This document shows, piece by piece, positions 2,773 through 31,897 of a DNA stretch of 36,902 nt. The position numbers and the translations under genes were made by a program. The notes under the pieces were generated by a model. That model was given only the letters and a program-made list of their open reading frames with translations, had not been told where the DNA came from and searched no databases. This DNA is from Bacteroidota bacterium (GTDB lineage Bacteria > Bacteroidota > Bacteroidia > Bacteroidales > F082), in contig QMPP01000007.1 of the NCBI GenBank assembly GCA_003650425.1, positions 1 to 36,902 of the forward strand. The letters run 5' to 3'. Numbering within the stretch: position 1 is the stretch's first letter; the number at the start of each line of letters is the position of its first letter.

Positions 2773-2811
2773 TCAGGAAGTTGTTTAAACCCGGTTACAA
2801 AAATTCAGCCT

Positions 2812-5025
2812 ATGAATACCCCTGAACCCATTTACCTCGATTACAATGCTACCACGCCCATTGCCAAAGAGGTAGCCGATGCCATGCGCCCCTATCTGGA
2901 ACACTATTTCGGAAATCCTTCCAGCGTTCACAGCTATGGTGTTAAAACCAAAATGGCGGTTGAAAAATCGCGTCGTCAGATTGCTGACCTTATTGGTTGC
3001 GACCCCTCGGAGATTATTTTTACCAGCGGTGGCACTGAATCTAATAATTATGCCATCAAGGGAATTGCCCTGGCTAATAAGAACAGGGGAAACCACATCA
3101 TCACTTCATCGGTGGAGCACCCGGCAGTTTTTGAGGTATGCAGTTATCTTGAAAAAAACGGTTTCGAAATTTCAACCATCGCGGTGGATGAGTTCGGTAT
3201 TATTAAAATGGATGAGCTGGAAGCAGCCATCCGTCCCGAAACCATACTGATTACCGTCATGCATGCCAACAACGAGGTGGGTAGCATACAGCCCATCGCC
3301 GAAATGGCAAAACTGGCTAAAGAGCACAACATCTACCTTCACTCCGATGCTGCTCAGTCGCTAGGAAAGATACCGGTTAATGTACAGGAAATGGGAGTTG
3401 ATTTACTGAGTATTGCCGGCCATAAACTATATGCACCCAAAGGGATTGGCGCCCTTTATATTCGCAAGGGGGTTCATTTGGAAAAGCTGATTCATGGTGC
3501 CGACCACGAGCAAAACCTGCGTGCCGGAACCGAAAATGTGCTGGAAATTGTAGGACTTGGAGCCGCCGCCGAACTGGCCAAAAACCACCTCGATAAAAAC
3601 ATGGAGCACTACCAAACCACCCGCAATTACCTGCAAAAGTTATTAACCGACGCGCTGCCGAATGTAAAAATAAACGGCCATCCCGAAAAACGGCTTCCCA
3701 ACACTTTAAGTATCTCCTTTCCCAAGGTGGAAGCCAACACGCTTATCGACCGGCTGGATGGCGTTGCCGCCTCGGCGGGCGCTGCCTGTCATGCCGAAAG
3801 CGTGGATGTTTCTGCCGTGTTAGAAGCCATGCTGGTGCCCCTCGACTTTGCCATGGGAACCATCCGGTTTTCAACAGGACGAGGCCTTACCATGGCCGAT
3901 ATCAAAACGGCTGCCGACGAAATCATCCGCACGGTTAAACAGTTAATGCCCAAGGAAGAATCGGTACCTGTTTCCGAAAAGCCCAAAGCTGACGAAATTA
4001 AACTTACCCACTACACACATGGGCTTGGCTGTGCCTGTAAAATACAGCCTCAACACCTGGAAAGCGTGCTTCAAAAACTCAATCCCATTTTTGATAAAAA
4101 CGTGCTGGTGGGAACCGAAACTGCTGACGATGCCACCGTTTATCAGCTGAGCGATGATTTGGCTATCGTGCAAACGCTCGACTTTTTTACGCCCATTGTT
4201 GACGACCCTTACGAATTTGGCGCTATCGCTGCTGCCAATGCCCTCAGTGATGTGTATGCCATGGGAGCCAAACCCTTGTTTGCGCTCAACATCGTGGGCT
4301 TTCCAGAGGATACGCTACCCATGGAGGTGTTGGAACTCATTCTTAAAGGAGCACAGGATAAAGCTACCGAAGCCGGCATTCCCATTCTTGGCGGACATAC
4401 TATTGAAGACCCTGAACCCAAATACGGGATGGTGGTTACCGGAAGCTTGAAACCAACCGAGATTATTAGAAATACCGGAGCAAAACCCGGTGATGTGTTG
4501 ATTCTTACCAAGCCATTGGGAACAGGAATTCTCTCGACTGCCATTAAACGCGGAATGGTAGAAGAGTCATTAAGAAAAGAGGTAACACAACTCATGTCGT
4601 CGCTAAATAAAACTGCCGCAGAGGTGATGAAAAATTATACGGTTCACGCCTGTACCGACGTTACCGGTTTCGGGTTAATGGGCCACTTAAAAGAGATGAC
4701 CGTGGGATCGGAATGCAACGTAACGGTTGAATATGCTGCTGTGCCTTACCTGCGTGAGGTGAAAAATCTGGCCACGGCAGGCGTCATTCCCGGAGGAACT
4801 TACAACAACATGGACTATGTAGCCGGTTTCGTCGATTACGGCAACCTGCCTCGTACCGACCAGTTGCTGCTTTGTGATGCTCAGACTTCGGGCGGATTGC
4901 TGATAGCTCTTCCGGCCGATTTGGCTCAACAGCTATTAACCGACCTCCAGACAAACGGAGTAGAAGATGCTACCCTAATCGGAAAATTTACAGAAACAGG
5001 AAAAGGAACCATCAAAATTATCTGA
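2812..5025 (+). CDS. Cysteine desulfurase fused to selenophosphate synthetase (NifS/IscS-like + SelD)
   Basis: A two-domain protein of 737 aa. Residues 1 to about 385 are a class V aminotransferase-fold cysteine desulfurase. IYLDYNATTPIAKEV opens the domain, GHKLYAPKG carries the pyridoxal-phosphate lysine (K205), and SAGAACHAES carries the catalytic Cys326. From about residue 398 to the end is SelD: THGLGCACKIQP resembles the E. coli active-site loop (C407, C409, K410), followed by the AIRS-type ATP-binding fold (ALSDVYAMGAKP, ILGGHTIEDPEP, VTGFGLMGHLKEM). The active-site residue is Cys, not selenocysteine. SelD makes selenophosphate from selenide and ATP, and the desulfurase half could supply selenide from selenocysteine, so the fusion would channel selenium between the two steps. 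The start is the ATG at 2812, because the upstream TTG lies in the promoter. No selA, selB, tRNA-Sec or selenouridine synthase gene lies in the window. Confidence 0.93.
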   Translation: MNTPEPIYLDYNATTPIAKEVADAMRPYLEHYFGNPSSVHSYGVKTKMAVEKSRRQIADLIGCDPSEIIFTSGGTESNNYAIKGIALANKNRGNHIITSSVEHPAVFEVCSYLEKNGFEISTIAVDEFGIIKMDELEAAIRPETILITVMHANNEVGSIQPIAEMAKLAKEHNIYLHSDAAQSLGKIPVNVQEMGVDLLSIAGHKLYAPKGIGALYIRKGVHLEKLIHGADHEQNLRAGTENVLEIVGLGAAAELAKNHLDKNMEHYQTTRNYLQKLLTDALPNVKINGHPEKRLPNTLSISFPKVEANTLIDRLDGVAASAGAACHAESVDVSAVLEAMLVPLDFAMGTIRFSTGRGLTMADIKTAADEIIRTVKQLMPKEESVPVSEKPKADEIKLTHYTHGLGCACKIQPQHLESVLQKLNPIFDKNVLVGTETADDATVYQLSDDLAIVQTLDFFTPIVDDPYEFGAIAAANALSDVYAMGAKPLFALNIVGFPEDTLPMEVLELILKGAQDKATEAGIPILGGHTIEDPEPKYGMVVTGSLKPTEIIRNTGAKPGDVLILTKPLGTGILSTAIKRGMVEESLRKEVTQLMSSLNKTAAEVMKNYTVHACTDVTGFGLMGHLKEMTVGSECNVTVEYAAVPYLREVKNLATAGVIPGGTYNNMDYVAGFVDYGNLPRTDQLLLCDAQTSGGLLIALPADLAQQLLTDLQTNGVEDATLIGKFTETGKGTIKII

Positions 5026-9014: not shown

Positions 9015-9082
9015 TTTGACAATTCTTACACTTTTCTTATGAAGTTGTTTATTGTAAGTTATTGTTTAAAACAATCATGGCA

Positions 9083-9257
9083 ACAAAAAAACTGCACCAA
9101 CTATTAAACCGGTACAGTCTATTAAACCGGTACAGTTTCATTAACCAAAAGAAATTACACTATATTAATACTGTTTTAAGTTACGTTAAACTTAATCCAA
9201 TTATCAATCAAATTAGTCAAAACATCAGGAGTTCGTGGAAATTCTTTTTTACAATTG
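9083..9257 (+). repeat. Long direct repeat, copy 2
   Basis: This is the second copy of the repeat at 5183-5340, in the same orientation. It carries an extra 18-base unit and a one-base deletion after the CAATCAAA segment. An ATG at 9077 opens a frame of 69 codons through it (MATKKLHQLLNRYS...). The corresponding frame in copy 1 lacks an ATG at that position. The two copies bracket the kinase, toxin-antitoxin relic and regulator. Confidence 0.85.
9101..9136 (+). repeat. 18-base tandem duplication inside repeat copy 2
   Basis: CTATTAAACCGGTACAGT occurs twice in immediate succession (9101-9118 and 9119-9136). Copy 1 has a single unit. The length is a multiple of three, so the frame is kept. Confidence 0.9.
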
Positions 9258-9277
9258 TCTATATAATTACAAACAAT

Positions 9278-9658
9278 TTATTTTGATTCGCGAATAAATC
9301 TCATGTATCTCCATTCTTGCTGGGCAGCGTTAATACCATGGCTTTCCAAATCATCGGGATTGCCATAAATATCATACCGGTTAGCAGGAGGTGCACTGTT
9401 GGTTCTTACCCAAAGATATTGGTCATCAATGCTCAGAATTTGATAATAGCTAACACCCACTTCCATTCCCAAATCGGCACCATTGGTGAGTTCAAGTACA
9501 TAAGCACCGGGGGTATCAACTCCGTTAATTTTAGTAACAAAAGTTAATGTGTCGTTTATATTATCAATGTGTTTAACACTCCTGCTGGCTTCGGGTGCTT
9601 CGTAACCCGTAGGGGATGGGTGAAATGATGCTTCCCTGAAAGAAGCACTATCCCCCGC
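9278..9658 (-). pseudogene. C-terminal remnant of a surface or carbohydrate-related protein
   Basis: On the minus strand a frame of about 126 codons runs from 9658 to the stop at 9278, preceded by a stop at 9659-9661. It has no ATG near its beginning. The translation (VTKINGVDTPGAYVLELTNG, then MEVGVSYYQILSIDDQYLWV, ending EWRYMRFIRESK) looks like the last beta-rich domain of a secreted Bacteroidota protein, with composition typical of PKD or SusE-like tails. The upstream part is gone. I do not recognise the parent gene. The position beside repeat copy 2 suggests a rearrangement truncated it. Confidence 0.55.
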
Positions 9659-9896
9659 TTAAGAAAATCACGTAATTTTATTTATTTACCATGCTGGTCA
9701 TATTTTTTAAAGATTCAAAATAGGAGATTTAACGTGATGTGTTTAACAGTAAAAACAATGAAAAACAACACTAATCGTTATTTTATATCAATAATTAGCA
9801 CCCGTTTTCCGGTTTTATCATGGTCATATTTATTTAAACTGAAAATAAATTAACAGGCAACATAGAAGGAGGGCTTTTATACGAAACCAATTAAAG
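9659..9896. other. Intergenic region upstream of the redox operon, with two similar motifs
   Basis: No gene is seen. The motif TGGTCATATTTTTTAAA at 9695-9711 recurs as TGGTCATATTTATTTAAA at 9821-9838. These may be regulator binding sites for the downstream operon, but similarity in such AT-rich sequence could be chance. Confidence 0.35.
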
Positions 9897-9904
9897 TAAT
9901 TTTG
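9897..9904 (+). promoter_or_regulatory. Putative -7 element of the 14-gene redox operon
   Basis: TAATTTTG matches TAnnTTTG and lies 40 bases before the ATG at 9945. No other -7 match was noticed in the tightly packed genes that follow, so this is the likely main promoter. Confidence 0.55.
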
Positions 9905-9944
9905 TCACCATAATTAGCTAATGATAAATTAAAAACATAGTATT

Positions 9945-10943
9945 ATGGACTTGTCAGTCAGTTACTTAGGTTTAAAAATCAAAAACCCGATCGTGGTTGG
10001 TAGTTCCGGTTTAACCGCATCGATTGAAAACCTGAAAAAAATGGAAAACAGCGGAGCTGGTGCTGTAGTTTTAAAATCCATCTTTGAAGAAGAAATTTTT
10101 TACGAATATAAAAGTATTCTTGAAAAAGAAAAAGAGGAAGACACCCCTAATTACGAGTATCTTGATTACTATGATTACAAAATCAAACAGGATAATGTAA
10201 AAAAGTATCTTGAACTAATTAAGAATGCGAAAAATGCTTTAAATATTCCGGTTATTGCAAGTTGCAACTGCGTTAGTTCTTGGGAATGGTGCTTTTTTGC
10301 CAAAAAGATTGAAGAGGCAGGTGCCGATGCTATTGAATTAAATATGTTTATACTTCCTTCGGATTTTACAAAAACCTGTGATGGAATTGAGAAAACATAT
10401 TTAAAACATATTGAAGCAATCAGAAAAGCGGTAAATATCCCGGTAGCTGTTAAACTTAGCTATTATTTTGCCGATTTGGCTGCTTTTGTAAAAAGAATAT
10501 CCGAAACTGGTGTAGATGGCGTGGTATTGTTCAACCGTTTCTTCCATCCTGATTTTGACATCGAAAACTTTCAAATTATTCCTTCCAACGTGTTAAGCCG
10601 TTCATCTGACCTCGCTATCTCGTTGCGTTGGATGTCAATTTTGTCAGGACGCCTTAGCAGTGACCTTATTGCTTCTACCGGTGTTCACGACGGCGCTTCG
10701 GTTATTAAAGAGATTTTAGCCGGTGCCGATGCGGTACAGGTGGTTTCAACACTTTATAAAAATGGAATCGAATCAATCGAGGATATGTTGGAAGAGGTGA
10801 AAACCTGGATGGAAAAACATGGCTTTAATAAAATTGATGACTTTAAAGGTAAAATGAGCCAGGTAAACAGCCCGAACCCTGCCGAGTACGAAAGAGTTCA
10901 GTTTATGCGCTACTTTGAAGATAAAAAATACAATCTCGGTTAA
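9945..10943 (+). CDS. Dihydroorotate dehydrogenase-like FMN protein
   Basis: A 332-aa TIM-barrel flavoprotein of the DHOD/PreA superfamily. MDLSVSYLGLKIKNPIVVGSSG is the family's N-terminal strand and substrate/FMN loop; IPVIASCNCVSSWEW (Cys107, Cys109), GADAIELNMF, IPVAVKLSYY, STGVHDGASVIKEILAGADAVQVVSTLY follow as FMN-contacting strands. The AIELN segment matches the usual asparagine-rich FMN site. It lacks the ferredoxin tail of PreA. It need not be the pyrimidine-pathway enzyme: it lies 17 bases before an Mrp-like membrane complex operon on the same strand, so it is probably co-transcribed and may be a redox partner of that complex. The true substrate is unknown. Confidence 0.8.
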   Translation: MDLSVSYLGLKIKNPIVVGSSGLTASIENLKKMENSGAGAVVLKSIFEEEIFYEYKSILEKEKEEDTPNYEYLDYYDYKIKQDNVKKYLELIKNAKNALNIPVIASCNCVSSWEWCFFAKKIEEAGADAIELNMFILPSDFTKTCDGIEKTYLKHIEAIRKAVNIPVAVKLSYYFADLAAFVKRISETGVDGVVLFNRFFHPDFDIENFQIIPSNVLSRSSDLAISLRWMSILSGRLSSDLIASTGVHDGASVIKEILAGADAVQVVSTLYKNGIESIEDMLEEVKTWMEKHGFNKIDDFKGKMSQVNSPNPAEYERVQFMRYFEDKKYNLG

Positions 10944-10960
10944 TTAAAATAATTACTTTT

Positions 10961-11473
10961 ATGCAAGCATTAACATTAAATCAAAAACTGGGAAGGTTTA
11001 TCGTAAATTGGGTATTCCTGATGTTGTTGTGGATTATGTTTACCAGTACGTTTGCTGCTCAGGAGTTGATAGTTGGTGGTTTACTTACCATGATTATCTC
11101 GCTGCTAAGCATTCGTCTGTTCACCTGCTGTGATTTATCATTACTTAGTCCTGTTAAGATATTTTGGATGGTATATTACTTTGGTGTATTTTTGGTAGCA
11201 CTTATTCAGGCAAACCTCGATGTTGCCCGCAGGGTAATATCCCCTTCGCTTCCCATTAACCCGGGTGTTGTTAAATTTAAAACCAAACTGAAAACCAATT
11301 ATTCAAAAATGGTTTTAGCCAACAGTATCACCCTGACTCCCGGAACGCTTACCATTGACGTTATAGACGATACCTTTTATATACACTGGATTGATGTGAA
11401 AACTACCGATCCGGAGAAAGCGTTCACGGAAATTGCCGAATCTTTTGAGAAAGTTTTATTAAAAATATTTTAA
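10961..11473 (+). CDS. MnhE/MrpE-like membrane subunit (MbxA-like)
   Basis: A 170-aa membrane protein of the Na+/H+ antiporter subunit E family. Hydrophobic helices fill residues 15 to 85 (WVFLMLLWIMFTSTF, ELIVGGLLTMIISLLSIRLF, IFWMVYYFGVFLVALIQ), followed by the diagnostic DVARRVISPSLPINPGVV and the cytoplasmic tail with ANSITLTPGTLTIDV. It is the first membrane subunit of the MBX-like complex and its stop overlaps the next start by one base. In MBH/MBX/Mrp systems this subunit supports the ion-translocating unit. Confidence 0.9.
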   Translation: MQALTLNQKLGRFIVNWVFLMLLWIMFTSTFAAQELIVGGLLTMIISLLSIRLFTCCDLSLLSPVKIFWMVYYFGVFLVALIQANLDVARRVISPSLPINPGVVKFKTKLKTNYSKMVLANSITLTPGTLTIDVIDDTFYIHWIDVKTTDPEKAFTEIAESFEKVLLKIF

Positions 11474-11733
11474 TGATGACATACATTATTTATATAGCAT
11501 TATCGCTCATGGCATTAGGTATGATTATGTCAGCCATACGATTCGTTAAAGGCCCTACCGCCGGCGACCGAGTTGTAGCGCTCGACACACTTACCACCAT
11601 CGGCGTATCAGCACTGGTGCTGCTTGCTTATGTATTTCAACGCTTTATTTACGTTGATGTAGCATTGGTTTACGCAGTACTCGGGTTTATAGGAGTAATT
11701 GTAATTGCCAGATATTTGGAGGGTGCACTATGA
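11473..11733 (+). CDS. MnhF/MrpF-like membrane subunit (MbxB-like)
   Basis: An 86-aa protein with three transmembrane helices. SAIRFVKGPTAGDRVVALDT is the family signature of Mrp subunit F, followed by two more helices ending in YLEGAL. It overlaps its neighbours at both ends (TAATG upstream, ATGA downstream), which indicates translational coupling within the complex operon. Confidence 0.92.
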   Translation: MMTYIIYIALSLMALGMIMSAIRFVKGPTAGDRVVALDTLTTIGVSALVLLAYVFQRFIYVDVALVYAVLGFIGVIVIARYLEGAL

Positions 11734-12095
11734 GTATTATGGAAATTATCGGCGGCATACTAATTATTATTGGTAGCATATTCCTGTTCCTCGGAGCCTT
11801 GGGAATTTACCGTATGCCCGACATTTATAATCGTCTTCAGGCAGGCACAAAAGCCACTACGCTTGGAGCAATGAGTTTAATTCTTGGTGTTGGTTTTCTG
11901 GAGCCTTCATGGATACTGAAAAGTTTGGTTTTAATCATTTTTATTGCTTTTTCCAACCCTATCAGTTCACATGCACTAGCACGGGCAACTTACCGTCGTG
12001 GTCATTATCCGCTTATTTTAAGCGATGATAAAGAAAATATGGATGCCTACCAGGAAGTAGTCCCTCACGAAAAAGAAAAGGAGGAAAAGGTATGA
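11730..12095 (+). CDS. MnhG/MrpG-like membrane subunit (MbxC-like)
   Basis: A 121-aa protein of the Mrp subunit G family. Three helices with the signature GALGIYRMPDIYNRLQAGTK and ISSHALARATYRRGH, followed by a charged cytoplasmic tail. The start overlaps the preceding stop by four bases and its own stop overlaps the next start by four. Confidence 0.92.
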   Translation: MSIMEIIGGILIIIGSIFLFLGALGIYRMPDIYNRLQAGTKATTLGAMSLILGVGFLEPSWILKSLVLIIFIAFSNPISSHALARATYRRGHYPLILSDDKENMDAYQEVVPHEKEKEEKV

Positions 12096-12376
12096 TAGCA
12101 TTAATTCTGATATTGGTTTTACTTGTGTTGATGATTGCTGCATCAGTTTACGCCGTTAGGCAAAAAGACTTGTTGTACGCCGTTATTGCTACGGGTATTA
12201 TTAGCCTTATACTGTCCATCTTGTTTTACCTGCTTCAGGCACCCGATGTGGCGCTTACCGAAGCAGCTATCGGGGTGGCCTTAACAACCATTATTTTTGT
12301 TATTACCATTCGTAATACCGAAAGAATGGAAGTTGAAAATGATAAAAAGAATAACACTAAATCAGCGGCGAAATGA
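12092..12376 (+). CDS. Mrp/MbxD-like small membrane subunit (DUF4040)
   Basis: A 94-aa, three-helix protein with QKDLLYAVIATGIISLILSI and LLQAPDVALTEAAIGVALTT. These are hallmarks of the DUF4040 segment that is the C-terminal part of MrpA in antiporters and a separate gene (MbhD/MbxD) in the complex I-like relatives. Being separate from a large MrpA favours the MBH/MBX type over a classical Mrp antiporter. Four-base overlaps occur on both sides. Confidence 0.88.
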   Translation: MIALILILVLLVLMIAASVYAVRQKDLLYAVIATGIISLILSILFYLLQAPDVALTEAAIGVALTTIIFVITIRNTERMEVENDKKNNTKSAAK

Positions 12377-13095
12377 AAAAGATACTAGTATTATTGTTGC
12401 TGGCTGTTGTTGGGTTTTATTTGGCCGGAACCTTTTTTGATATCGGTTTTGGAAACTCTCATTTTGTAAAAAATGATGCCATAAAACCCGTTAAAGATAT
12501 CTATCTGCAACAAACAGTTCAAGAGTTAAAAGTTTCCAATGCGGTTACCAGCATTGTGGTTAACTTTAGAGGATTTGATACATTGGGAGAGGTTACGGTT
12601 CTGTTTCTTTCGGTAACTGCACTCGGTAGTATTTTATATAAGAAAAGACACCACGTGGGTGAGCGTTCGGTATTGTTTTCGGCTAGTAGTATTGTTACTT
12701 CCGGCTCAAAACTATTGTTCCCTGCCATTGTTTTGCTTGGTGCTTACGTATTTATCCACGGTCACTTGTCTCCCGGCGGAGGATTTCAGGGTGGAGTTAT
12801 TATAGCCACCGGATTCTTGCTGATGCTGCTGGCTTACGAAAACTACTCGGTTAGCCACAACGGACTTTCCATTGTTGAATCGTTGGCAGGTATCACCTTT
12901 GTCGGTGTTGGCTTATTGGGATTTATGAATGGCGGAACTTTCCTTCAAAACTTCCTTCCCACAGGCGAGTTAAACAATTTGTTTAGTGGTGGTATTATTC
13001 CCATTATTTATATTGCTGTAGGGTTTAAAGTGGCCGCCGAGCTTACCGGTGTTATTTATACCGTATTAAACGAGAAAGGAGAGCAAAATGGATAG
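12373..13095 (+). CDS. Fused MbxE/MnhB-like membrane subunit
   Basis: A 240-aa protein that joins two units often separate in archaeal MBH. Residues 1 to about 90 carry the MbhE-like region (AVTSIVVNFRGFDTLGEVTV and the following helix). From about residue 100 is an MnhB domain, with VFIHGHLSPGGGFQGGVIIA as its signature, and helices to the end. It sits in the ion-translocating half of the complex. Its end overlaps the next start by eight bases. Confidence 0.88.
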   Translation: MKKILVLLLLAVVGFYLAGTFFDIGFGNSHFVKNDAIKPVKDIYLQQTVQELKVSNAVTSIVVNFRGFDTLGEVTVLFLSVTALGSILYKKRHHVGERSVLFSASSIVTSGSKLLFPAIVLLGAYVFIHGHLSPGGGFQGGVIIATGFLLMLLAYENYSVSHNGLSIVESLAGITFVGVGLLGFMNGGTFLQNFLPTGELNNLFSGGIIPIIYIAVGFKVAAELTGVIYTVLNEKGEQNG

Positions 13096-13459
13096 TGCCT
13101 ATTTTCAATATTTAAATTATGCCATTTACGGCACAGCAGTACTGGTTATGTTAACCGGACTGTATGCTGCCCTGGTTAAAAAGTCGTTGCTGAAAATTGT
13201 TATCGGTCTTTCAATTGTCGATTCGGGGTTAAACTTGTTAATCGTTACGTTAGGCTATTTAAAAGGCGGTACAGCTCCTATTTTTTCTTCGGGTTATAAT
13301 GGCACGCAAACAATGGTTGACCCCATTCCGCAGGCATTGGTTCTTACAGCCATTGTTATTGGGTTTGGTGTTACTGCTGTTGCCCTTTCGCTCGTAATCC
13401 GTCTTTGGAGACATCATCATACATTATATATTGACGAAATAAAGAATTTAAAATGGTAG
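13088..13459 (+). CDS. MnhC/NuoK-like membrane subunit (MbxG-like)
   Basis: A 123-aa protein with three transmembrane helices of the MrpC/NuoK family (KIVIGLSIVDSGLNLLIVTLG, PIPQALVLTAIVIGFGVTAV). Acidic residues inside the helices are kept, as in proton-pathway subunits of complex I. It overlaps the preceding and following genes by eight and seven bases. Confidence 0.92.
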   Translation: MDSAYFQYLNYAIYGTAVLVMLTGLYAALVKKSLLKIVIGLSIVDSGLNLLIVTLGYLKGGTAPIFSSGYNGTQTMVDPIPQALVLTAIVIGFGVTAVALSLVIRLWRHHHTLYIDEIKNLKW

Positions 13460-14940
13460 GAACTCCGGTTTTATTTATAGCAATTCCCCTCTTGGCGGCC
13501 TTTTTAATACCGCTGATTGGGATGGTTTGGAAAGAGTCGGTTAGGATTATACCCGGACTGGTTCTTGCTTACCTATTAGTATTGGCCATCAATCTTTTGA
13601 GCTATGTTACAGTTAATGGACCTATTGTTGAGGTAATTGCCGGATGGGCACCTCCCATAGGAATTAACCTTGTATTCAACGCCTTCTCGGGATTTTTGGT
13701 TACGATTATGGTTTTTATGGGTCTTTTGGTGTGGCTTTACAGCTATCGCTTTAAAAGTAACGTGGAATATGAAGCTGCCCGTAAATATTTCCTTTTATTA
13801 ATGATGCTTATTACCGGTTCGGTAGGCATCGTTTTAACAGGTGATATTTTTAACATGTTCGTGTTTATCGAAATTACGAGTATTTCGGGATATGCTTTAA
13901 CAGCCTTTTATACCGGCCGCGATAGTGCCGAAGCTTCCTTTAAATATTTAATGATGGGTTCCATCGCATCGGTTATGCTGTTGCTGGCCATCATGATTAT
14001 TTATTCACAATTGGGAACGCTTAACATGGCCGACGTTGCATCGAAAATGCATTTGATGGATCCCAAGTTAAAAGCAGTATCATTTATACTGTTTGTTATT
14101 GCTTTGGGCATTGAAGCAGAGGTTTTCCCGCTGAACGGATGGGCACCTGATGCTTATGCAGAAGCGCCCGGCCCGGTAGGTGCTGCTTTTTCAGGGATTG
14201 TTGTTAAAGCAGGTGTTTATGCCCTGATTCGTTATACCTACACTATTTTCGACTTGTCAGGCGCTTTCAACCTGTTAATCATTATTGGATTAATTACGCT
14301 GGTTGTTGCCGAGGTGGCTGCTATTCGTCAGGAAAAACTGAAACGGATGCTTGCTTACTCTTCTATTGGACAAATGGGGTTGGTGTTGGTTTCGTTTGGT
14401 ATTGGTACCAAGGAAGGTGTTTTTGCCGCCCTGTTTATTATGCTAAACCACGCCATCATTAAACCATTACTCTTCTTTAGCGGAAGTTACCTGGTTTATC
14501 ATTCCAAGAAAAAAATGATTTCGGATGTTGACGGTATAGGCAAACTTGCTCCGTTAACCTCCATCTTATTTACCTTAGGTGCTTTTGCCATCGTGGGACT
14601 TCCTCCGTTTGCAGGATTCTGGAGTAAGTTATCGTTTTTAATGGCCGCTGCCGACAGCAACATGCTGCTGGTTATCGGTCTTATTCTTTCGGTAAGTGTG
14701 GTTGAACTTGTATATTATATGCGTGTTGTTAATAGAATATTCTTCTTTAAACGAACAACAAGTTTATTGACAAGACGACCCACTTTTAATGCTTACGTGG
14801 TTATGATTATTTTAGGTTTGATGATTCTGGTTATCGGTTTTTACCCCGATAGCGTTTCAATGTATCTGCATAATGCCGCCAACAGCTTATTCGATAAGTC
14901 TCAGTATATTCATAGTGTGTTAACTGCAACAATACAATAG
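13453..14940 (+). CDS. Antiporter-like proton pump subunit, MnhD/NuoN-like (MbxH-like)
   Basis: A 495-aa polytopic membrane protein of the proton-translocating NuoL/M/N family. Key features are MFVFIEITSISGYALTAF with the conserved glutamate in helix 5, the broken-helix region (EVFPLNGWAPDAYAEAPGPV) and KRMLAYSSIGQMGLVLVSFG. It is the first of two large pump-type subunits here. Two such genes in a row match the MBX arrangement (H and H') and not MBH, which has one. Confidence 0.93.
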   Translation: MVGTPVLFIAIPLLAAFLIPLIGMVWKESVRIIPGLVLAYLLVLAINLLSYVTVNGPIVEVIAGWAPPIGINLVFNAFSGFLVTIMVFMGLLVWLYSYRFKSNVEYEAARKYFLLLMMLITGSVGIVLTGDIFNMFVFIEITSISGYALTAFYTGRDSAEASFKYLMMGSIASVMLLLAIMIIYSQLGTLNMADVASKMHLMDPKLKAVSFILFVIALGIEAEVFPLNGWAPDAYAEAPGPVGAAFSGIVVKAGVYALIRYTYTIFDLSGAFNLLIIIGLITLVVAEVAAIRQEKLKRMLAYSSIGQMGLVLVSFGIGTKEGVFAALFIMLNHAIIKPLLFFSGSYLVYHSKKKMISDVDGIGKLAPLTSILFTLGAFAIVGLPPFAGFWSKLSFLMAAADSNMLLVIGLILSVSVVELVYYMRVVNRIFFFKRTTSLLTRRPTFNAYVVMIILGLMILVIGFYPDSVSMYLHNAANSLFDKSQYIHSVLTATIQ

Positions 14941-14952
14941 GAGAACAAAGAA

Positions 14953-16803
14953 ATGGATATGTTAACATTAATATTATTATTATTTTTAGGTGGGGCTATC
15001 GTTACCTGGTTAGGTAATAAATTAAGCCCTGTCGTTGGCGACCTGCTGTTTTTGGCTACCATTATTATTCCTGCCGGGATGTTCTTTACAGGCGTTACGG
15101 TTGGCGAAGTAACACATTTGCATGCACTTGGCCTTACCCTTACCTGGGGCTTAACTCCATTGAGCTACTTGTTCTCAATGATTGTGGTTGGTCTTGGTAT
15201 CCTCCTGGCTATTTATGCTGTACCTTTTATGAAAGGGAAACAAAAAACAGGAGCGTTTTATTTTAACTTTACCCTGTCGGTGATGTCGATGCTGGGAATT
15301 CTCGTAAGTAAAGATTGGGTATCCTTCTTTATCTTTTGGGAAATTATGACATGGTCATCATACCTGATGGTAGTACTTAATGGTAAAGATGTACAGCGAG
15401 TTGGAATAAAATATTTTGTTTTTTCAGCCATTGGCGCTTATGCTATGTTAATGGCCATGGTGATAATGAACAGTCAGTTGGGCAGCTTTTTGTTGGCCGA
15501 CACGTTCAATAATTTCCAACATTTAACCACGGGAAATCAAATATTGATACCTATTCTTTTATTGGTAGCCTTTGGTGTTAAAAGTGCCATGATGCCACTA
15601 CATGTTTGGGCTCCTGATGCATATAGTAATGCCCCCATGGCCTATACCGGACTTTTTTCGGGTGCTCTCTCCAAGATGGGTATTTACGGAATGGTACTGG
15701 TTATGGTTACCATGATTAATCAACTGCCGGAAGGTACTTTGATTAGAGATATCATTGCCTGGATAGGTGGCTTTACCGCTGCAGCAGCAACTTTGTGGGC
15801 TATTACCCAAGATGACGGTAAAAAATTGCTTGCATGGTCTTCGGTTGGGCAGATGGGTTACATTATTGTAGGGGTTGCCATTGGTACCCCGCTGGCTATG
15901 CTGGCTGCGATGTTCCTTGTTGTTGTTCACGCCATGTTTAAAGGTAGTTTGTTTATGGTGGTCGGTGCTATCGAAAAGCAAACCGGCACTACTAACTTTA
16001 CCGAAATAAACGGGTTAATTAGAAAAATGCCCTGGACTTTTATTTCAGCGTTGATTTCTGTTATCGCCTTGGCAGGTATTCCTCCATTGGCCGGATTTGT
16101 TTCTAAATGGATGCTGTACGAGGCACTGATTCAAAACAACAATTACATTTTGGTTATTTTGTTGTTTTTTGCATCCACGGCAGGTTTCCTTTATTGTTAC
16201 AAATTTCTACACGGCTATTTTCTGGGTCAGGAAGAACCCGAATGGGCTCATGTAAAAGAAGCACCCGTAGCCATGGTTATTCCTATGGTGTTGTTAGCAT
16301 TGGGGAACTTTGTTTTAGGAACATTCCCACAGCTTATATTTAAACCCATTGATGCAGCCATGCAGTTCGCAGGTTACGATGCTACCGGTGGTCGCTTGTG
16401 GGGCGAATCGGTTTTGTTTACCGAGTGGGGTGATGTGGTTACTTTACAACCAATACTGTACGCGGTATTAGCTGTTTTTGTATTCTTTGCACTTTTCTTG
16501 TGGTTTAAAGGAACAAAAGGAACCCGTTACGTATCTACAAAAGATATTAGTACCTCGGGGGAGCTTCCAAAAGAGTGGGAAAACCTTACCTTTAAGGTTA
16601 ACTTTATGCAACCTTTCGAGCGTGCTATCGAACCGTTTCTGAAACGACAAATCGATAAATATTATACGGCCTTTGGTAACGGAATGGAAGCCCTGTTTGA
16701 ATTTACCAGACGTATTCATACCGGAAATGGTCAAACTTATGCTATTTATGCTATACTGTTTTTAGCATTACTGTTGCTGTTCAGAGTTAATTTGTTCGGA
16801 TAA
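14953..16803 (+). CDS. Second antiporter-like proton pump subunit (MbxH'-like)
   Basis: A 616-aa member of the NuoL/M/N family. It has FFIFWEIMTWSSYLMVVL with the conserved Glu, MMPLHVWAPDAYSNAPMAYT, LLAWSSVGQMGYIIVGVAIG and a C-terminal extension with soluble stretches and a last helix (AIYAILFLALLLLFRV). It is longer than the first pump subunit and placed next to the NuoH-like gene, as expected for the subunit closest to the membrane arm/peripheral arm junction. Two pumps suggest a higher ion yield per electron pair than in MBH; that is known from archaeal MBS and inferred here. Confidence 0.92.
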   Translation: MDMLTLILLLFLGGAIVTWLGNKLSPVVGDLLFLATIIIPAGMFFTGVTVGEVTHLHALGLTLTWGLTPLSYLFSMIVVGLGILLAIYAVPFMKGKQKTGAFYFNFTLSVMSMLGILVSKDWVSFFIFWEIMTWSSYLMVVLNGKDVQRVGIKYFVFSAIGAYAMLMAMVIMNSQLGSFLLADTFNNFQHLTTGNQILIPILLLVAFGVKSAMMPLHVWAPDAYSNAPMAYTGLFSGALSKMGIYGMVLVMVTMINQLPEGTLIRDIIAWIGGFTAAAATLWAITQDDGKKLLAWSSVGQMGYIIVGVAIGTPLAMLAAMFLVVVHAMFKGSLFMVVGAIEKQTGTTNFTEINGLIRKMPWTFISALISVIALAGIPPLAGFVSKWMLYEALIQNNNYILVILLFFASTAGFLYCYKFLHGYFLGQEEPEWAHVKEAPVAMVIPMVLLALGNFVLGTFPQLIFKPIDAAMQFAGYDATGGRLWGESVLFTEWGDVVTLQPILYAVLAVFVFFALFLWFKGTKGTRYVSTKDISTSGELPKEWENLTFKVNFMQPFERAIEPFLKRQIDKYYTAFGNGMEALFEFTRRIHTGNGQTYAIYAILFLALLLLFRVNLFG

Positions 16804-16817
16804 AAAATTATAGACAA

Positions 16818-17747
16818 ATGGAATATATATTAATAAAAGTGTTAGAGGCGATGGCCACTTTTGTTCTCGCGTTTATCGTGGGAATGACTTACGGAGGAGT
16901 TGTTCGAAAAATTACCGGAAGAGTTCATAACCGTTTAGGACCTCCCTGGTATCAGAACTTTATCGATGCTTTTAAACTTTTTTCAAAAACTCGTGGAATA
17001 CACCATGGTGCTATGCACTTTTTAGGAGCTGCCTTTTTAATGGTTACTTCGGTAGTTTCGCTGATGATTATCCCGATTTTGGCACCCGGCGGACATGCCT
17101 GGTACAACAGCTGGTTTACTAATTTGAATTTTAATGGCGACCTGATTTTTCTGATTTATATTATGACCTTTGGTCCGTTGGGTATGGCCATGGGAGCAGG
17201 CCAAACCGGTAACCCTAACTCATCTATTGGTGTAACCCGTGGATTGAGCCAAATGGTAGGGTTTGAAATTCCCTGGGTGATGGCTTTGGTAGCGCTGATG
17301 ATTACTTATAAAACAACTTCTATTGTTGACTTTATGAACATTCAGCGCGAAACAGGCACTTGGCTTATGTTTGCCAACCCGTTTGCATTTATTGCCGCCG
17401 TGCTGGCCATGTTGGGAATGTTCAGATATTCTCCTTTTGATATCGTGGGCGCACCAACCGAGCTGGCATCAGGCCCTGTTTCTGAAAATGGAGGTAAATT
17501 TTTGTTTACCATGATGTCGTCAGGATCGGTATTTACCTTTGCCAAACTGGTGTTGTATGTCGATTTGTTTATGGGTGGAGCCAACAATCTAATTATGCTC
17601 GTGGTAAAAACATTTCTACTTTATATGATTCCCGTTTTATATGGCATAGTTAGTCCCCGTTACCGTACCGAACAAGCGGTAAGATGGTTTTGGGGATGGC
17701 CAACCTTTATTGGCTTACTGGCTATTTTATATGCTGTTATGTTTTAA
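16818..17747 (+). CDS. NuoH-like membrane anchor subunit (MbxM-like)
   Basis: A 309-aa protein with about eight transmembrane helices of the complex I subunit 1/HycD/EchB family. GRVHNRLGPPWYQNFIDAFKL is the family's signature loop; RYSPFDIVGAPTELASGPVSE is the second signature, carrying conserved acidic residues at the quinone/catalytic interface. It would link the membrane pumps to the peripheral redox subunits. It is 14 bases after the preceding gene. Confidence 0.94.
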   Translation: MEYILIKVLEAMATFVLAFIVGMTYGGVVRKITGRVHNRLGPPWYQNFIDAFKLFSKTRGIHHGAMHFLGAAFLMVTSVVSLMIIPILAPGGHAWYNSWFTNLNFNGDLIFLIYIMTFGPLGMAMGAGQTGNPNSSIGVTRGLSQMVGFEIPWVMALVALMITYKTTSIVDFMNIQRETGTWLMFANPFAFIAAVLAMLGMFRYSPFDIVGAPTELASGPVSENGGKFLFTMMSSGSVFTFAKLVLYVDLFMGGANNLIMLVVKTFLLYMIPVLYGIVSPRYRTEQAVRWFWGWPTFIGLLAILYAVMF

Positions 17748-17760
17748 AAATTATTGAAGA

Positions 17761-18312
17761 ATGTATAACGATAAGAATTCAAAAAAGATAGTTGAGACAA
17801 TTCAAAATTGGGCACGAAGCCACTCCATATGGGTTTTAGCTTACGGAACCGGTTGCGGTGCCATTGAAATTTCTCCTACCATGACTTCGAGATACGATGC
17901 AGAACGGCTTGGTTTCAGGGGTGCTGCCACCCCGCGTCAGGCCGATGTAATGCTCATTACCGGTTACCTGACGGTTAAAACAGTAAAACGGGTGGTTCGT
18001 GTTTACGAGCAAATGCAAAGTCCTAAATATGTTGTGGGATTTGGTTCATGTACCATCAATGGTGGTATGTATTACGATTCGTACAATACTATTAATCTGC
18101 TCGACAGATATTTGCCCGTGGATGTATATATCAACGGTTGTATGCCTCGTCCCGAAGCCGTTCTTGCCGGTTTGAGTAAGCTACAGCAAATTATCCGCGA
18201 AGGAAATGCCAATGGTGCTGAAAAGTACCTTGAAAACCTTGCATGGTATAAGGAAAATCAGCGCAAAATTGCTCCTAACTGGATAGCTAAAGCTCCTGAT
18301 TTAAACTGGTAA
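17761..18312 (+). CDS. NuoB-like [4Fe-4S] subunit with only three cysteines (MbxJ-like)
   Basis: A 183-aa peripheral subunit of the NuoB/hydrogenase small subunit family. Complex I uses a CC pair plus two further cysteines. Here the sequence is YGTGCGAIEIS (Cys32, next position Gly), VGFGSCTINGG (Cys97) and INGCMPRPEAV (Cys127), so only three ligands remain and no other cysteine occurs in the chain. Family knowledge: archaeal MBS uses a site-differentiated iron-sulfur cluster at this place to reduce sulfane sulfur. The pattern here supports an MBX/MBS-type catalytic cluster with an open iron site and argues against a hydrogenase or a quinone-reducing complex I. Confidence 0.92.
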   Translation: MYNDKNSKKIVETIQNWARSHSIWVLAYGTGCGAIEISPTMTSRYDAERLGFRGAATPRQADVMLITGYLTVKTVKRVVRVYEQMQSPKYVVGFGSCTINGGMYYDSYNTINLLDRYLPVDVYINGCMPRPEAVLAGLSKLQQIIREGNANGAEKYLENLAWYKENQRKIAPNWIAKAPDLNW

Positions 18313-18333
18313 TATAACGATAAAGAAAAAGTT

Positions 18334-18900
18334 ATGAAAGAGATAAAAGATAAAATGATTGCTCAAATTAAAGCTGTGTTTCCGGAGGCGGTAAACAAAG
18401 ATTATGATGGTAATCGTTTGGATTTGACGGTTAACAAAGAGGCTGTACCTTCTGTCTTGCTTTATTTAAAAGATTCGATGGGTTTCAGGCATCTTTCACA
18501 TATTGCCTATGTTGATTGGATTGAGCAAGGTGAATTTGAACTGGTGTATATTCTCTGGTCACCTTTGGATAAAGTAAAGCTATATGTCCATACTCGCATC
18601 AATCGCGAAAATCCTGTGATAGAAAATATCGACATGATTTGGCGTCAGGCGAATACCTACGAAAGGGAAATCAGGGAAATGCTGGGTATTGAGTTTACCG
18701 GCTTAGTAGCTCCTGATGAGTTTATCCTTGAAGATTGGGACGATATACCTCCTTTTCGTAAAGACTTTGACACCTTAGAATATGTAAATCGCACTTTCTG
18801 GCATCGTCCGGGAAGAGAAGATGCACAAGATGTTCGTTCAACCATTTCCGAACGTTCGGGTGAAGAAATTCCTGATTTTGCAAAAAAATACTCCAGATAG
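18334..18900 (+). CDS. NuoC-like subunit (MbxK-like)
   Basis: A 188-aa soluble subunit of the complex I 30 kDa family. NTYEREIREMLGIEFTGLVA is the family signature, followed by a tail with DDIPPFRKDFDTLEYVNRTF. No metal ligands are seen, as usual for the family. It is two bases before the NuoD-like gene, with which it forms the peripheral arm. Confidence 0.92.
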   Translation: MKEIKDKMIAQIKAVFPEAVNKDYDGNRLDLTVNKEAVPSVLLYLKDSMGFRHLSHIAYVDWIEQGEFELVYILWSPLDKVKLYVHTRINRENPVIENIDMIWRQANTYEREIREMLGIEFTGLVAPDEFILEDWDDIPPFRKDFDTLEYVNRTFWHRPGREDAQDVRSTISERSGEEIPDFAKKYSR

Positions 18901-18902
18901 TT

Positions 18903-20006
18903 ATGAGAGAAAAGGCAACAACAATATATTTAGGACCTCAGCATCCCGGTATTACCGGTAACATGATGGTGCGTTTGAAAGTTATTGGCGACACTATCGT
19001 TAGTGCTCAAACAGAGGTCGGTTACCTGCACCGTGCTTTTGAAAAGCTACAGGAAAGAAGAAACTGGTTACAGGGTTTTACCCTGATGTGCCGTTTCTGT
19101 GTTCCCGAATCTGATCCTATGGAAAATGTTTATGCTCGTTCGGTAGAGGCCATCGATGGTCGTGAAGTGCCTGAAAGAGGTAAATACATCAGAGTTATGG
19201 TTTTGGAATTGGCTCGTATAGCCACGCAGCTGATGTGGTATGCCGGGCAAAACGGCTCGCTGGGTCTTTATACCATGGGGCAATGGTCGATTGGTGATAG
19301 GGATTATATCCTGGATCTTTTTGAAGAGCTGACCGGCGGTCGTGTTTATCACATGTATCAGTGGCCGGGCGGTGTTCGCCGTGACCTTCCTGAAGGGTTT
19401 ACCGATAAGGTACTCCGTACTTTGGATTACCTCGAAAAACGGTTGAAGGACTACGATGACCTTATGTTCGCCAACTCTATCTTCCAGAAAAGAACCCAGG
19501 GTGTTGGTATTGTTCCAAAAGAGAACATTATTGAGCACGGTGTCGTGGGTCCCGTTCTTCGTGGTGCCGGTATCCGTAGCGATATCCGTATTGATGAACC
19601 GTATGAAGTTTACGATAAGTTAGACTTCGAGATACCTACACAGGAAGGGAGCGATATTTGGGCCAGAGCATTGGTTCGTCGTGCTGAAGTACACCAGTCC
19701 ATTCGTATCATTCGTCAGGTTATCGACCAAATGCCATCCGGAGAATATTTCAACAAGTTTCCAAATCCTTTAAAGTGGATTGTGCCTGCAGGCGATGCCT
19801 ATGTAAGGGTTGAATCAGGTCGTGGAGAAGTTGGCTTTTATGCCGTATCGGATGGTACCATTCATCCCAGAAGAATGCACCTGAGAGGAGCTGCTTACGT
19901 TCACGCTATTACACTACTCGAGAGTATTCTTCCAGGACAGAATATTGCCGACGTTTCGGCTATTATGAATAGCCTTGGAACCTGTGCGCCGGAAATTGAA
20001 CGTTAA
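18903..20006 (+). CDS. NuoD-like subunit, degenerate [NiFe] site (MbxL-like)
   Basis: A 367-aa protein of the NuoD/hydrogenase large subunit family (YLGPQHPGITGNMMVRL at the N-terminus, VGYLHRAFEKLQERRNWLQ, GRGEVGFYAVSDGTIHPRR). The N-terminal CxxC survives (MCRFCVPESDP, Cys63 and Cys66). The C-terminal end is NSLGTCAPEIER, with a single Cys361 where hydrogenases have DPCxxC. Hence a [NiFe] centre cannot be bound in the normal way. The loss fits the MBX/MBS group, which evolved from hydrogenases. No C-terminal extension for hydrogenase protease processing exists: the chain ends right after the motif. Confidence 0.93.
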   Translation: MREKATTIYLGPQHPGITGNMMVRLKVIGDTIVSAQTEVGYLHRAFEKLQERRNWLQGFTLMCRFCVPESDPMENVYARSVEAIDGREVPERGKYIRVMVLELARIATQLMWYAGQNGSLGLYTMGQWSIGDRDYILDLFEELTGGRVYHMYQWPGGVRRDLPEGFTDKVLRTLDYLEKRLKDYDDLMFANSIFQKRTQGVGIVPKENIIEHGVVGPVLRGAGIRSDIRIDEPYEVYDKLDFEIPTQEGSDIWARALVRRAEVHQSIRIIRQVIDQMPSGEYFNKFPNPLKWIVPAGDAYVRVESGRGEVGFYAVSDGTIHPRRMHLRGAAYVHAITLLESILPGQNIADVSAIMNSLGTCAPEIER

Positions 20007-20036
20007 TAATTTAGAATAAGACAAAAATCAATAGAT

Positions 20037-21827
20037 ATGAGTTTTTTCGATCTGCAAGGAACACTTAAACCGCTTACCGCGCTGAAACAGTTCGGTAAAA
20101 AGCCACATACACTAAAAGATATTCCATGGAAAAAGCGTGAAGCTTCTGACCGATACAGAGGATTGCACTTTAACGACTTGGATGAATGTATTGGCTGTGG
20201 TAACTGTTCTACTATTTGTCAAAACGCTGCCATCGACATGATCCATCTCGAAGGCATTGAAGGTAAAAAAGGTGACTCGGGATTGCGCCCACGTGTCGAC
20301 AACGGTCGATGCTGCTGGTGTGCCCTTTGTGTAGAGGTTTGCCCAACAGGAAGCCTTAGTCTTACCAAAGATTATATTTATGTAACCGAAGATCCGGATG
20401 CCTTTTTATGGACGCCGGGGGTTGATAATCCTGATGGTGCCGAGCGTAAATCATTCGTTAGTGATAAAGATCACTCACTAAACGATTTCAACCGTATTCC
20501 GATGCCTGAACTAGAAGGCAAAGAAAGAGTTAAGTCGTTTGCTGAGGTTGTGCTGGGTTATAACGAACAGCAGGCTCGTGAAGAGGCATCACGTTGTATC
20601 AGCTGCGGTATTTGTACCGAAGTTTGTCCCGACCACATGCATATTCCTGAGTATATCAATGCTATTGCTAGTGGTAACGATAAAGATGCCGTTAAAATTA
20701 TTTACGACAACAACCCGTTGCCGGAGATGTGTGGTAAAGTTTGTACCCGTCGTTGTGAAGATGTTTGTGCCATTGCCACCCGCGGTGATTCCGTGGCTAT
20801 TCGTTGGCTAAAACGTTATGCTACTGAAACTGCTGCCACGGCTGACCTTACACACGAAATTGTAAATCCCGAGATTAAGGAAGCTAATGGCAAAACGGTT
20901 GGTATCATCGGTGCAGGCCCTTCAGGTCTTACGGCTGCTTACTATCTGGCATTACGTGGTTACGATGTAACGATTTACGAAGCCAGCGCTAAAGCTGGGG
21001 GTGCTACCATGTATGGTATTCCTAAGTATCGTTTACCAATCGAAAGTTTGGATAAACAGATTGGCTACATCCAAAGTATTGGGGTTAAAATTAACTTCAA
21101 CACTAAAGTTGGTAAGGACATTTCATTTAAGGAAATCTACGATAAATATGACACCGTATTTATGGGTGTTGGGTTCCCTGATGCGTGGCCATTGGGTGTG
21201 GATGGTGATGATGCCAAAGGCTCCATGCAGGCATTCCGTTATCTGTATATGATTAATGCCGGTGATAAAGTAGATATCGGCGATAAAGTTGTTGTTGTTG
21301 GTGGTGGTAATGTTGCCATCGATGCAGCAAGAGTTTCCCGTCGTTTTGGCGCTGAGGTTACCATTCTCTATCGTCGTCGTGTTGCAGACATGCCGGCCGA
21401 TTGGGAAGAAATTGAAGGTGCCGAAGACGAAGGTGTTCATATCATTCCACAAGGTATTCCAACTAAAATCCACAAAGATGACAAAGGTCATGTAACTGGC
21501 ATTGAATACCTGAAAGCCAAGATGGTTGCCGACGATAAAGGCGGTCGACCGCGTCCTGTTGCCATCGAAGGTAGTGAAACCATTCTTGAAGCAACGGCTG
21601 TTATGGCTGCTATCGGACAGATGGGTGACTATAGCTTCCTCCCCAAAGAGTTTGAAGATAAGATCAAAATTGAAAGAGGTAGATTTGTTGTTAACGAAAA
21701 ACAGCAAACCGGCGACCCGAAAGTATTTGCCGGTGGCGATGCCGTTAACCGTACTGCTGATGCTATTTCGGCTATTGCCGACGGTTTCCGTGCCTGCAAA
21801 GCCATTGATGAATATTTGAGTAAATAG
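20037..21827 (+). CDS. Ferredoxin subunit (MbxN-like) fused to a GltD/NfnB/PreT-like NAD(P)H flavoprotein
   Basis: A 596-aa fusion. Residues 45-105 hold two [4Fe-4S] motifs: DECIGCGNCSTIC (Cys51, 54, 57, 61) and RCCWCALCVEVCP (Cys92 or 93, 95, 98, 102), the equivalent of MbxN/NuoI. From about 180 begins the GltD family: a cysteine-rich N-terminal domain (SRCISCGICTEVC, MCGKVCTRRCEDVC), a FAD Rossmann motif (VGIIGAGPSGLTAAYYLA), an NAD(P)H Rossmann motif (VVVVGGGNVAIDAARVS) and the closing FAD motif (VFAGGDAVNRTADAIS). It would pass electrons between NAD(P)H/FAD and the cluster chain of the complex. The last gene of the operon, it is followed by a strong terminator. The exact nucleotide preference cannot be told by eye. 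Confidence 0.93.
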   Translation: MSFFDLQGTLKPLTALKQFGKKPHTLKDIPWKKREASDRYRGLHFNDLDECIGCGNCSTICQNAAIDMIHLEGIEGKKGDSGLRPRVDNGRCCWCALCVEVCPTGSLSLTKDYIYVTEDPDAFLWTPGVDNPDGAERKSFVSDKDHSLNDFNRIPMPELEGKERVKSFAEVVLGYNEQQAREEASRCISCGICTEVCPDHMHIPEYINAIASGNDKDAVKIIYDNNPLPEMCGKVCTRRCEDVCAIATRGDSVAIRWLKRYATETAATADLTHEIVNPEIKEANGKTVGIIGAGPSGLTAAYYLALRGYDVTIYEASAKAGGATMYGIPKYRLPIESLDKQIGYIQSIGVKINFNTKVGKDISFKEIYDKYDTVFMGVGFPDAWPLGVDGDDAKGSMQAFRYLYMINAGDKVDIGDKVVVVGGGNVAIDAARVSRRFGAEVTILYRRRVADMPADWEEIEGAEDEGVHIIPQGIPTKIHKDDKGHVTGIEYLKAKMVADDKGGRPRPVAIEGSETILEATAVMAAIGQMGDYSFLPKEFEDKIKIERGRFVVNEKQQTGDPKVFAGGDAVNRTADAISAIADGFRACKAIDEYLSK

Positions 21828-28367: not shown

Positions 28368-28395
28368 GGTTATTTATTTTCTTCGCTTTGCGCTG

Positions 28396-28413: not shown

Positions 28414-28456
28414 TACAGGGGGTGGATGATTTCTGTTGTTTTCAATATACCGCATT

Positions 28457-31861: not shown

Positions 31862-31897
31862 AATTAATAATCTTGATGTTTACTGTTTATTAATTAA

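Follow-up and report, generated by a model that had tools for sequence, protein, structure and literature searches.

The operon and its fused flavoprotein

We analysed 36,902 nucleotides from a Bacteroidales genome (hereafter the window), corresponding to contig QMPP01000007.1 of the assembly GCA_003650425.1 (contig C7 of our genome G000; 3.1 Mb in 311 contigs, 91.9% complete). The window encodes a putative membrane-bound respiratory complex in thirteen intact frames, all on one strand (10961-21827), neighbouring frames overlapping or lying apart by no more than 30 bases. The first twelve matched, in order, the families MNHE, MrpF, MnhG, MbhD, MbhE plus MnhB, NuoK/MrpC, Proton_antipo_M (twice), NuoH, NuoB, NuoC and NuoD, and the thirteenth encodes a NuoI that continues into a flavoprotein (Table 1). 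We take this order to be that of the archaeal MBS/MBX operons, and the Glu/Lys motifs of the two pump subunits are presumably those expected of antiporter-like subunits. The initial annotation had described both the MBX/MBS gene order and a last gene running on into a GltD/NfnB-type flavoprotein. Both observations hold, since each frame is intact and matches the expected family, and the fusion is a single open frame conserved across genomes. Its start coordinate (9945) had to be corrected: it belongs to a frame resembling dihydroorotate dehydrogenases (DHOD-like), with 17 bases separating its end from the thirteen genes. The 930 bases 5' of the operon (9015-9944) have no frame longer than 76 amino acids and may hold a decayed gene. 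Scans for promoters (34 vs 34.5) and terminators (16 vs 13.5) in the window gave numbers near chance, and an Rfam scan of the window at the gathering threshold gave no match.

Table 1. Genes of the operon and its companion, with the matches or motifs behind each name.
Feature	Position	Strand	Evidence
DHOD-like (PRK07565), companion gene	9945..10943	+	NF005741 418 bits, cut-off 303
MrpE/MbsA-like	10961..11473	+	PF01899 1.9e-40
MrpF/MbsB-like	11473..11733	+	PF04066 2.5e-19
MrpG/MbsC-like	11730..12095	+	PF03334 5e-25
MbhD/DUF4040-like (MbsD)	12092..12376	+	PF13244 2.9e-22
MbhE-MnhB fusion (MbsE-like)	12373..13095	+	PF20501 + PF04039
MrpC/NuoK-like (MbsG)	13088..13459	+	PF00420 1.9e-24
MrpD/NuoN-like ion pump 1 (MbsH)	13453..14940	+	PF00361 9.3e-62; motifs FIE, VVKAG, FWSK
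MrpD/NuoL-M-like ion pump 2 (MbsH')	14953..16803	+	PF00361 5.3e-60; motifs FWE, LSKMG, FVSK
NuoH/MbsM-like membrane anchor	16818..17747	+	PF00146 2.4e-49
NuoB/MbsJ-like, 3-Cys proximal cluster (C32, C97, C127)	17761..18312	+	best PDB chain 6u8y_J, 211.8 bits
NuoC/MbsK-like	18334..18900	+	PF00329 2.8e-26
NuoD/MbsL-like	18903..20006	+	best PDB chain 6u8y_L, 340.6 bits; tree
NuoI with two 4Fe-4S motifs, continuing into a flavoprotein of GltD/NfnB type (two further cluster sites, FAD and NAD(P) folds, YRR), 596 aa	20037..21827	+	ferredoxin motifs, Fer4_20, Pyr_redox_2

The fusion protein matched NF010590 (PRK13984, "putative oxidoreductase") in one stretch covering residues 10-596 and model positions 12-608 of 611. 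We searched for relatives on named genome contigs and kept the best 80 of 125; in 76 of these the match began no later than residue 5 and reached residue 590 or beyond. Their titles are mostly those of metagenome-assembled genomes (MAGs) of Bacteroidales, Saprospiraceae, Flavobacteriaceae, Chlorobiota and Melioribacteraceae, with one Caldithrix and one Sulfurovum; the nearest relatives lie on contigs titled Bacteroidales MAGs. At E ≤ 1e-100, and counting the window's own genome, 46 of the 295 genomes searched from this order and 2 of the 395 sampled across the phylum had a match to the fusion. The 46 genomes hold 50 matches (5 partial), which fall into 26 with 53-100% identity and 24 with 42-46%; four genomes encode one of each. 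We divided the loci by their cores into group A, to which the window belongs, and group B. Of the 80 loci in group A, 45 had all 13 genes, as had 15 of the 16 in group B, and the order was kept in all 60. The other loci were cut by the ends of contigs or stretches, or lacked a match. With full-length relatives and a conserved order in 60 loci, an assembly error, which the initial annotation had named as a possible source of the fusion, is ruled out.

The architecture itself is not new, because Thermotoga maritima carries a full-length fusion, the only one to score at full length among 14 control genomes and one that exceeded the NF010590 cut-off in a strict search. That its gene belongs with the mbx unit of this genome is our assumption; this 13-gene unit has been published as an MBS homologue with ferredoxin as the supposed donor (PMC9431562). 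The window protein scored 655 bits with NF010590, below L095 of group B (902) and below the curated cut-off (946), which suggests that the T. maritima fusion is nearer to group B. The window subgroup is therefore the more divergent one. We found no description of the fusion in the titles and abstract openings of the literature searched or in passages of PMC9431562 on T. maritima MBX, and other papers on Mbx (Schut et al. 2013, 2016) may contain one.

The flavoprotein half resembles NfnB. Foldseek matched the structure model to NfnI-L of Pyrococcus furiosus (5jca_L, template modelling score by target 0.84), to T. maritima NfnB (4ylf_B) and to GltD, and the sequence matched 5jca_L with 313.5 bits. 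The model is fairly good in the flavoprotein part; residues 1-66 have a predicted local distance difference test score below 50, and most of the first half of NuoI is poor. We aligned 40 fusion proteins, i.e., the window's, 25 from the 80 group A loci and 14 from the 16 group B loci, leaving out L034, whose frame breaks at the coordinates given for it. Sixteen candidate cluster cysteines are invariant in the 40 rows: eight in the two CxxCxxCxxxC motifs of the NuoI domain (51, 54, 57, 61 and 92, 95, 98, 102) and eight in the flavoprotein (187, 190, 193, 197, 232, 236, 240, 244). Cys93 is likewise invariant. The cluster ligands of T. maritima NfnB listed in PMC7596348 are seven cysteines and Glu117. 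The fusion keeps the seven cysteines and replaces the glutamate by Lys259 in 40 of 40 rows. Cys232 aligns with C86 of NfnB, which is not a listed ligand; that it takes the place of Glu117 is a guess from the alignment, and an earlier idea of ours, that it is extra relative to NfnB, was wrong, as T. maritima NfnB has a cysteine there. Two chains from complexes named NfnABC, 9n5u_A and 9bov_A, have this lysine too in their GltD-like domains, and it therefore cannot separate bifurcating from plain enzymes. Unlike NfnB/NfnL, with which it shares the fold, the YRR motif and the seven cysteines, the window protein is fused to NuoI.

The coenzyme motif differs between the groups. All 26 aligned group A rows (window included) have YRR, as do L101-L103, and the remaining 11 group B rows have SLE (10) or CLE (1). 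According to PMC7596348, the NADP phosphate is bound by YRR in NfnB, and the motif is also the signature of DsrL-2, which is restricted to NADP(H); of two tested DsrL with an S/T-x-x pattern one used NAD(H) only and the other strongly preferred it. We predict from these motifs that the window fusion uses NADP(H), and most of group B NAD(H). DsrL is also comparable as a GltD-like flavoprotein that connects an enzyme of sulfur metabolism with NAD(P)H and shows this same split between YRR and S/T-x-x coenzyme motifs, but its partner is DsrAB, it has a second ferredoxin domain at the C-terminus, and it is not part of a fusion with a membrane complex. The proteins of L101-L103 (L101:2998-4761, L102:2569-4323, L103:10578-12347) combine a YRR-type FAD/NADP domain with a group B type core. 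They are 53-58% identical to the window's over the fusion and 48-50% in NuoD, which looks like a domain exchange within the fusion.

Kinship and active-site residues

Comparisons of the core subunits place the complex with MBS. In the PDB, NuoD of the window scored 340.6 bits with P. furiosus MBS, 222.8 with the best chain of complex I/NDH and 147.9 with MBH; for NuoB these values were 211.8, 139.7 and 107.8. In a NuoD tree of 71 rows (21 group A including the window, 17 group B, one archaeal MBS, 30 complex I and two hydrogenases, with the hydrogenase-like L162 excluded), groups A and B joined P. furiosus MBS with support of 100/100, and complex I (93/88) and the hydrogenases were separate. 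The tree program flagged long branches. The groups stayed apart in thinned trees lacking the hydrogenases or MBS, and three rival groupings tested on a thinned quick tree were rejected by the approximately unbiased test, if not overwhelmingly (p 0.030-0.032). We did not use the NuoD relatives in 246 plasmid records, all of which were below 60% identity. The relationship to MBX/MBS that had been put forward from the gene order is thus supported by the NuoD tree, the NuoB and NuoD scores and the active-site residues below. The proposed phylogenetic check put NuoD outside hydrogenases and complex I on the tree, and NuoB was compared by score and motif.

NuoB of the window has three cysteines for the proximal cluster, C32, C97 and C127, and a glycine where MbsJ has C25. 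All 70 group A rows share its GTGCG motif (L104 and L105 among them are second copies of L053 and L060), and so do all 15 group B rows. The CC motif of the proximal cluster, present in 26 complex I rows, is absent from the window protein and from 85 of 85 rows of both groups. These complex I sequences, two of which are second copies, belong to 33 further rows labelled X, which also comprise four re-fetched MBX loci, one further group B locus (L152), the row L155, which lacks the region, and Escherichia coli HycG. In MBS, according to PMC7684303, only C28, C93 and C123 bind the proximal cluster and one open iron does the chemistry; the variants C25A (MbsJ) and C85A/C385A (MbsL) remain active, and removal of the unique iron abolishes about 98% of the activity.

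The quinone-site residues of NuoD, His38 and Tyr87, are replaced by Thr18 and Val67 in all 21 group A and all 17 group B rows, whereas 27 of 27 Bacteroidales complex I rows keep the histidine and tyrosine. At the NiFe site, group A keeps two of the four cysteines (C66 and C361, 21/21 rows), as does MBS; group B has C66 in 14 of 17 rows and C361 in 14 of 17, and three rows lack both. The other two positions (69 and 364), which are cysteines in MBH and HycE, are glutamates in 38 of 38 rows. An additional Cys63 was found in 21 of 21 group A rows and 4 of 17 group B rows. We had at first counted it as a third conserved NiFe cysteine in group A, which was wrong, as it sits in a shifted register. 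Identities as hydrogenase or as complex I were rejected on these residues and the NuoD trees.

We regard the complex as a variant of the MBX/MBS branch, an assignment that is well supported in its anatomy by the sequence comparisons. It shares with P. furiosus MBS (6u8y) 13 matching subunits, the three-cysteine proximal cluster, the two pumps and the lack of a quinone site and of a full NiFe site. The glycine of NuoB and the extra cysteine of NuoD set it apart, as does the length of NuoI, which in 6u8y_N is 208 amino acids and in the window runs on into the flavoprotein. We filed it under MBX/MBS, not P. furiosus-type MBS, because of this fusion. Overall, the first account of the locus was right about kinship and fusion, and it overlooked the precedent in T. 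maritima and the DHOD-like companion gene.

The putative reaction and its alternatives

We propose, with a probability of about 0.45, that the complex is an NADPH-driven, ion-pumping sulfane-sulfur or disulfide reductase of the MBS/MBX branch. The proposal starts from the gene set, the fusion, the cluster cysteines, the lost quinone and NiFe residues and the YRR motif. NADPH would be oxidised at the flavin adenine dinucleotide (FAD) of the fused flavoprotein, and electrons would pass through its two 4Fe-4S clusters and the two of NuoI to the proximal cluster of NuoB. There, an S-S bond in polysulfide, in sulfane sulfur or in a thiol disulfide would be split by the iron that lacks a cysteine. 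This redox step, taking place at the chamber formed by NuoB, NuoD and NuoH, would power both MrpD-like pumps together with the Mrp module, moving H+ or Na+. The NuoI clusters may also accept electrons from ferredoxin, which they do in P. furiosus MBS. We infer the path and the site by homology, and cofactor binding and pumping likewise; substrate and direction are guesses. Expression data from other organisms speak for the proposal: PMC9431562 gives a 4.36-fold rise of T. maritima mbxA after addition of elemental sulfur (S0), and PMC10356935 reports that 10 of 13 MBS genes of bacterium 3DAC rose with S0, with Nfn2 highly expressed as well.

Several points weigh against this proposal. The span from NADPH to polysulfide is only about 50-150 mV, which is little for two pumps and an Mrp module. 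Ferredoxin is the donor in P. furiosus and in the proposal for T. maritima (PMC9431562). Sulfur use by the hosts is unproven: growth of Melioribacter roseus is described as not stimulated by elemental sulfur (PMC3534657), and Caldithrix abyssi as not supported by sulfur respiration, even if sulfur slightly stimulated its fermentation of peptone and was reduced to sulfide (PMC5317091). The link of these two hosts to our loci is by name, through L079 (named Melioribacter roseus) and L083 (titled Caldithrix sp.).

The first alternative is an ion-pumping ferredoxin:NADP+ oxidoreductase, where ferredoxin would feed the NuoI clusters, the flavoprotein would reduce NADP+ and the energy gained would pump ions; earlier papers described Mbx in this way (PMC4596419, PMC6349859). 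The NADP-type flavoprotein fused to the complex fits such a reaction, and so do the DHOD-like paralogues that adjoin ferredoxin and NAD(P) enzymes. However, donor and acceptor sites would then both lie on the arm of NuoI and the flavoprotein, electrons could bypass the coupling chamber of NuoB, NuoD and NuoH, and the three-cysteine cluster, kept in 85 of 85 rows, would serve nothing. A further exchanger between ferredoxin and NAD(P) is also less needed because G000 already has nfnAB and rnf genes (a cluster cut by a contig end, with rnfC recognised by PF01512 and rnfB, rnfD and rnfG by eye). We consider this reaction unlikely and favour S-S reduction by NAD(P)H, because of the open-iron cluster and the coupling geometry of the superfamily. 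A confurcating or bifurcating variant, in which NADPH and ferredoxin would act jointly at the FAD as in Nfn and one branch would end on sulfur at the proximal cluster, draws on the closeness of the flavoprotein to NfnI-L (5jca_L), a subunit of a bifurcating enzyme, on the seven conserved NfnB cysteines, and on the nfnA- and nfnB-like genes that directly follow the operon in L065 and L071. The window operon has no NfnA, and the change of Glu117 to Lys259 makes the FAD-side cluster not quite Nfn-like, a weak objection given the lysines of 9n5u_A and 9bov_A. We find such a variant quite unlikely.

The general plan of the complex, a nicotinamide module on NuoB, NuoC, NuoD, NuoH and NuoI plus a pump core, is that of complex I, and NCBIfam names NuoB (above two cut-offs) and NuoD (above one) accordingly. 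Complex I-like clusters without NuoEFG, with ferredoxin as the supposed donor, are mentioned for M. roseus and C. abyssi in PMC3534657 and PMC5317091. The core fold, too, is shared with complex I. That the complex reduces quinone, with GltD having replaced NuoEFG, is nevertheless highly improbable, as none of the 38 rows has the His or the Tyr of the quinone site, the CC motif is missing, and NuoD falls elsewhere on the tree. A PF00346 search of G000 found the window gene and no second NuoD-type protein, hence no quinone-reducing complex I, in this 91.9% complete genome. An energy-converting [NiFe] hydrogenase, matured by the hyp genes of the window, is hardly credible. The presence of hypA, hypD and hypE in the same window and the two remaining NiFe cysteines would agree with it, but positions 69 and 364 are glutamates throughout both groups, NuoD stands apart from hydrogenases on the trees, and a [NiFe] hydrogenase on contig C4 can account for the hyp genes. 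These genes lie at 27309-32277 (hypE, hypD and hypA, with a likely hypF between them recognised by eye) and fit the hydrogenase of contig C4.

We tentatively advance a broader picture, which we hold to be less likely than not: a complex I-like, S-S-splitting NADPH pump whose nicotinamide module was gained independently of NuoEFG, which exists in an NADP-type (A) and a mostly NAD-type (B) line and is served by a DHOD-like flavin protein found in Bacteroidales with unrelated enzymes of ferredoxin and NAD(P) as well. If the NADPH-driven reduction of S-S bonds is true, some Bacteroidales, Ignavibacteria and relatives conserve NAD(P)H energy through an MBS-type complex, and evolution has arrived more than once at the plan of complex I, in which a nicotinamide module sits on a core that pumps ions. 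The complex also provides a bacterial test case for the series from MBS to complex I, with two subgroups whose coenzyme use is predictable from three residues. The DHOD-like companion, a common protein, is given a concrete set of partners.

The companion gene and genomic surroundings

The DHOD-like gene is a companion of the operon in more than one layout, which is a new observation. Leaving the window aside, 33 of the 80 group A loci have it close to the operon (23 upstream, 10 downstream), and 12 of the 16 group B loci have it downstream. Among the ten downstream cases of group A, it is further on in L065, L070 and L071, and in L065 and L071 it follows the nfnA- and nfnB-like genes placed directly after the MBX operon. 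Seven loci of group A and three of group B lack it with both sides visible; one flank or neither is visible in the other 41.

G000 encodes five DHOD-like copies, beside MBX, nfnAB, the NuoE/F-linked [NiFe] hydrogenase and a divergent nifJ, with one alone (nfnA and nifJ were named by eye). Over the loci compared, DHOD-like paralogues at 9945-10943 of the window and at L118:5735-6733, L117:1-639, L159:2871-3884 and L184:1468-2478 adjoin MBX, nfnAB, a NuoEF-linked [NiFe] hydrogenase, nifJ and, in the case of L184, rnfB-rnfC, which it directly precedes. Among 30 loci from a further search, a partner was recognised in 14 (10 nifJ, 2 nfn, 1 rnf and 1 MBX) and none in 16. Pyruvate:ferredoxin oxidoreductase (nifJ) is over-represented because the query was the nifJ-side copy, six of its ten matches are short (69-94 bits), and the 30 loci include this copy itself and one MBX locus already counted. 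The paralogues thus occur beside Nfn, the NuoEF-linked [NiFe] hydrogenase, pyruvate:ferredoxin oxidoreductase and Rnf, an association that is new. The protein is common, being matched in 48 of 60 genomes of the order (E ≤ 1e-40).

Its kin in the PDB are dihydroorotate dehydrogenases, with a low best score of 39 bits, and it does not keep their SCPN stretch, which we take to be a functional site. Such activity of the companion is therefore doubtful. As to its role, a flavin mononucleotide (FMN) relay and upkeep of the NAD(P)H pool are no more than ideas. We do not claim independent recruitment of the gene: its tree splits the group B rows (starred branches, at least two changes), with weak deep branches and three long rows.

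Other genes of the window lie further from the operon. A single frame at 2770-5025 joins a NifS/IscS-type cysteine desulfurase to the selenide, water dikinase SelD. At 33562-36783 we found an octaheme cytochrome c of the tetrathionate reductase family (above the cut-off), beside a protein that combines a cytochrome b part, weakly thiosulfate reductase-like, with a PAS domain. The two cytochromes would fit sulfur chemistry and prove nothing. In other Bacteroidales, L194-L198 hold operons of the Mrp-Mbh type, with the NuoB motif GASCNNCDIE read in L194, L196, L197 and L198. L195-L198 have in front of them, by eye, lookalikes of sulfhydrogenase-type FNR and iron-sulfur subunits, which may be a case of a membrane hydrogenase with an NAD(P)H input of independent origin.

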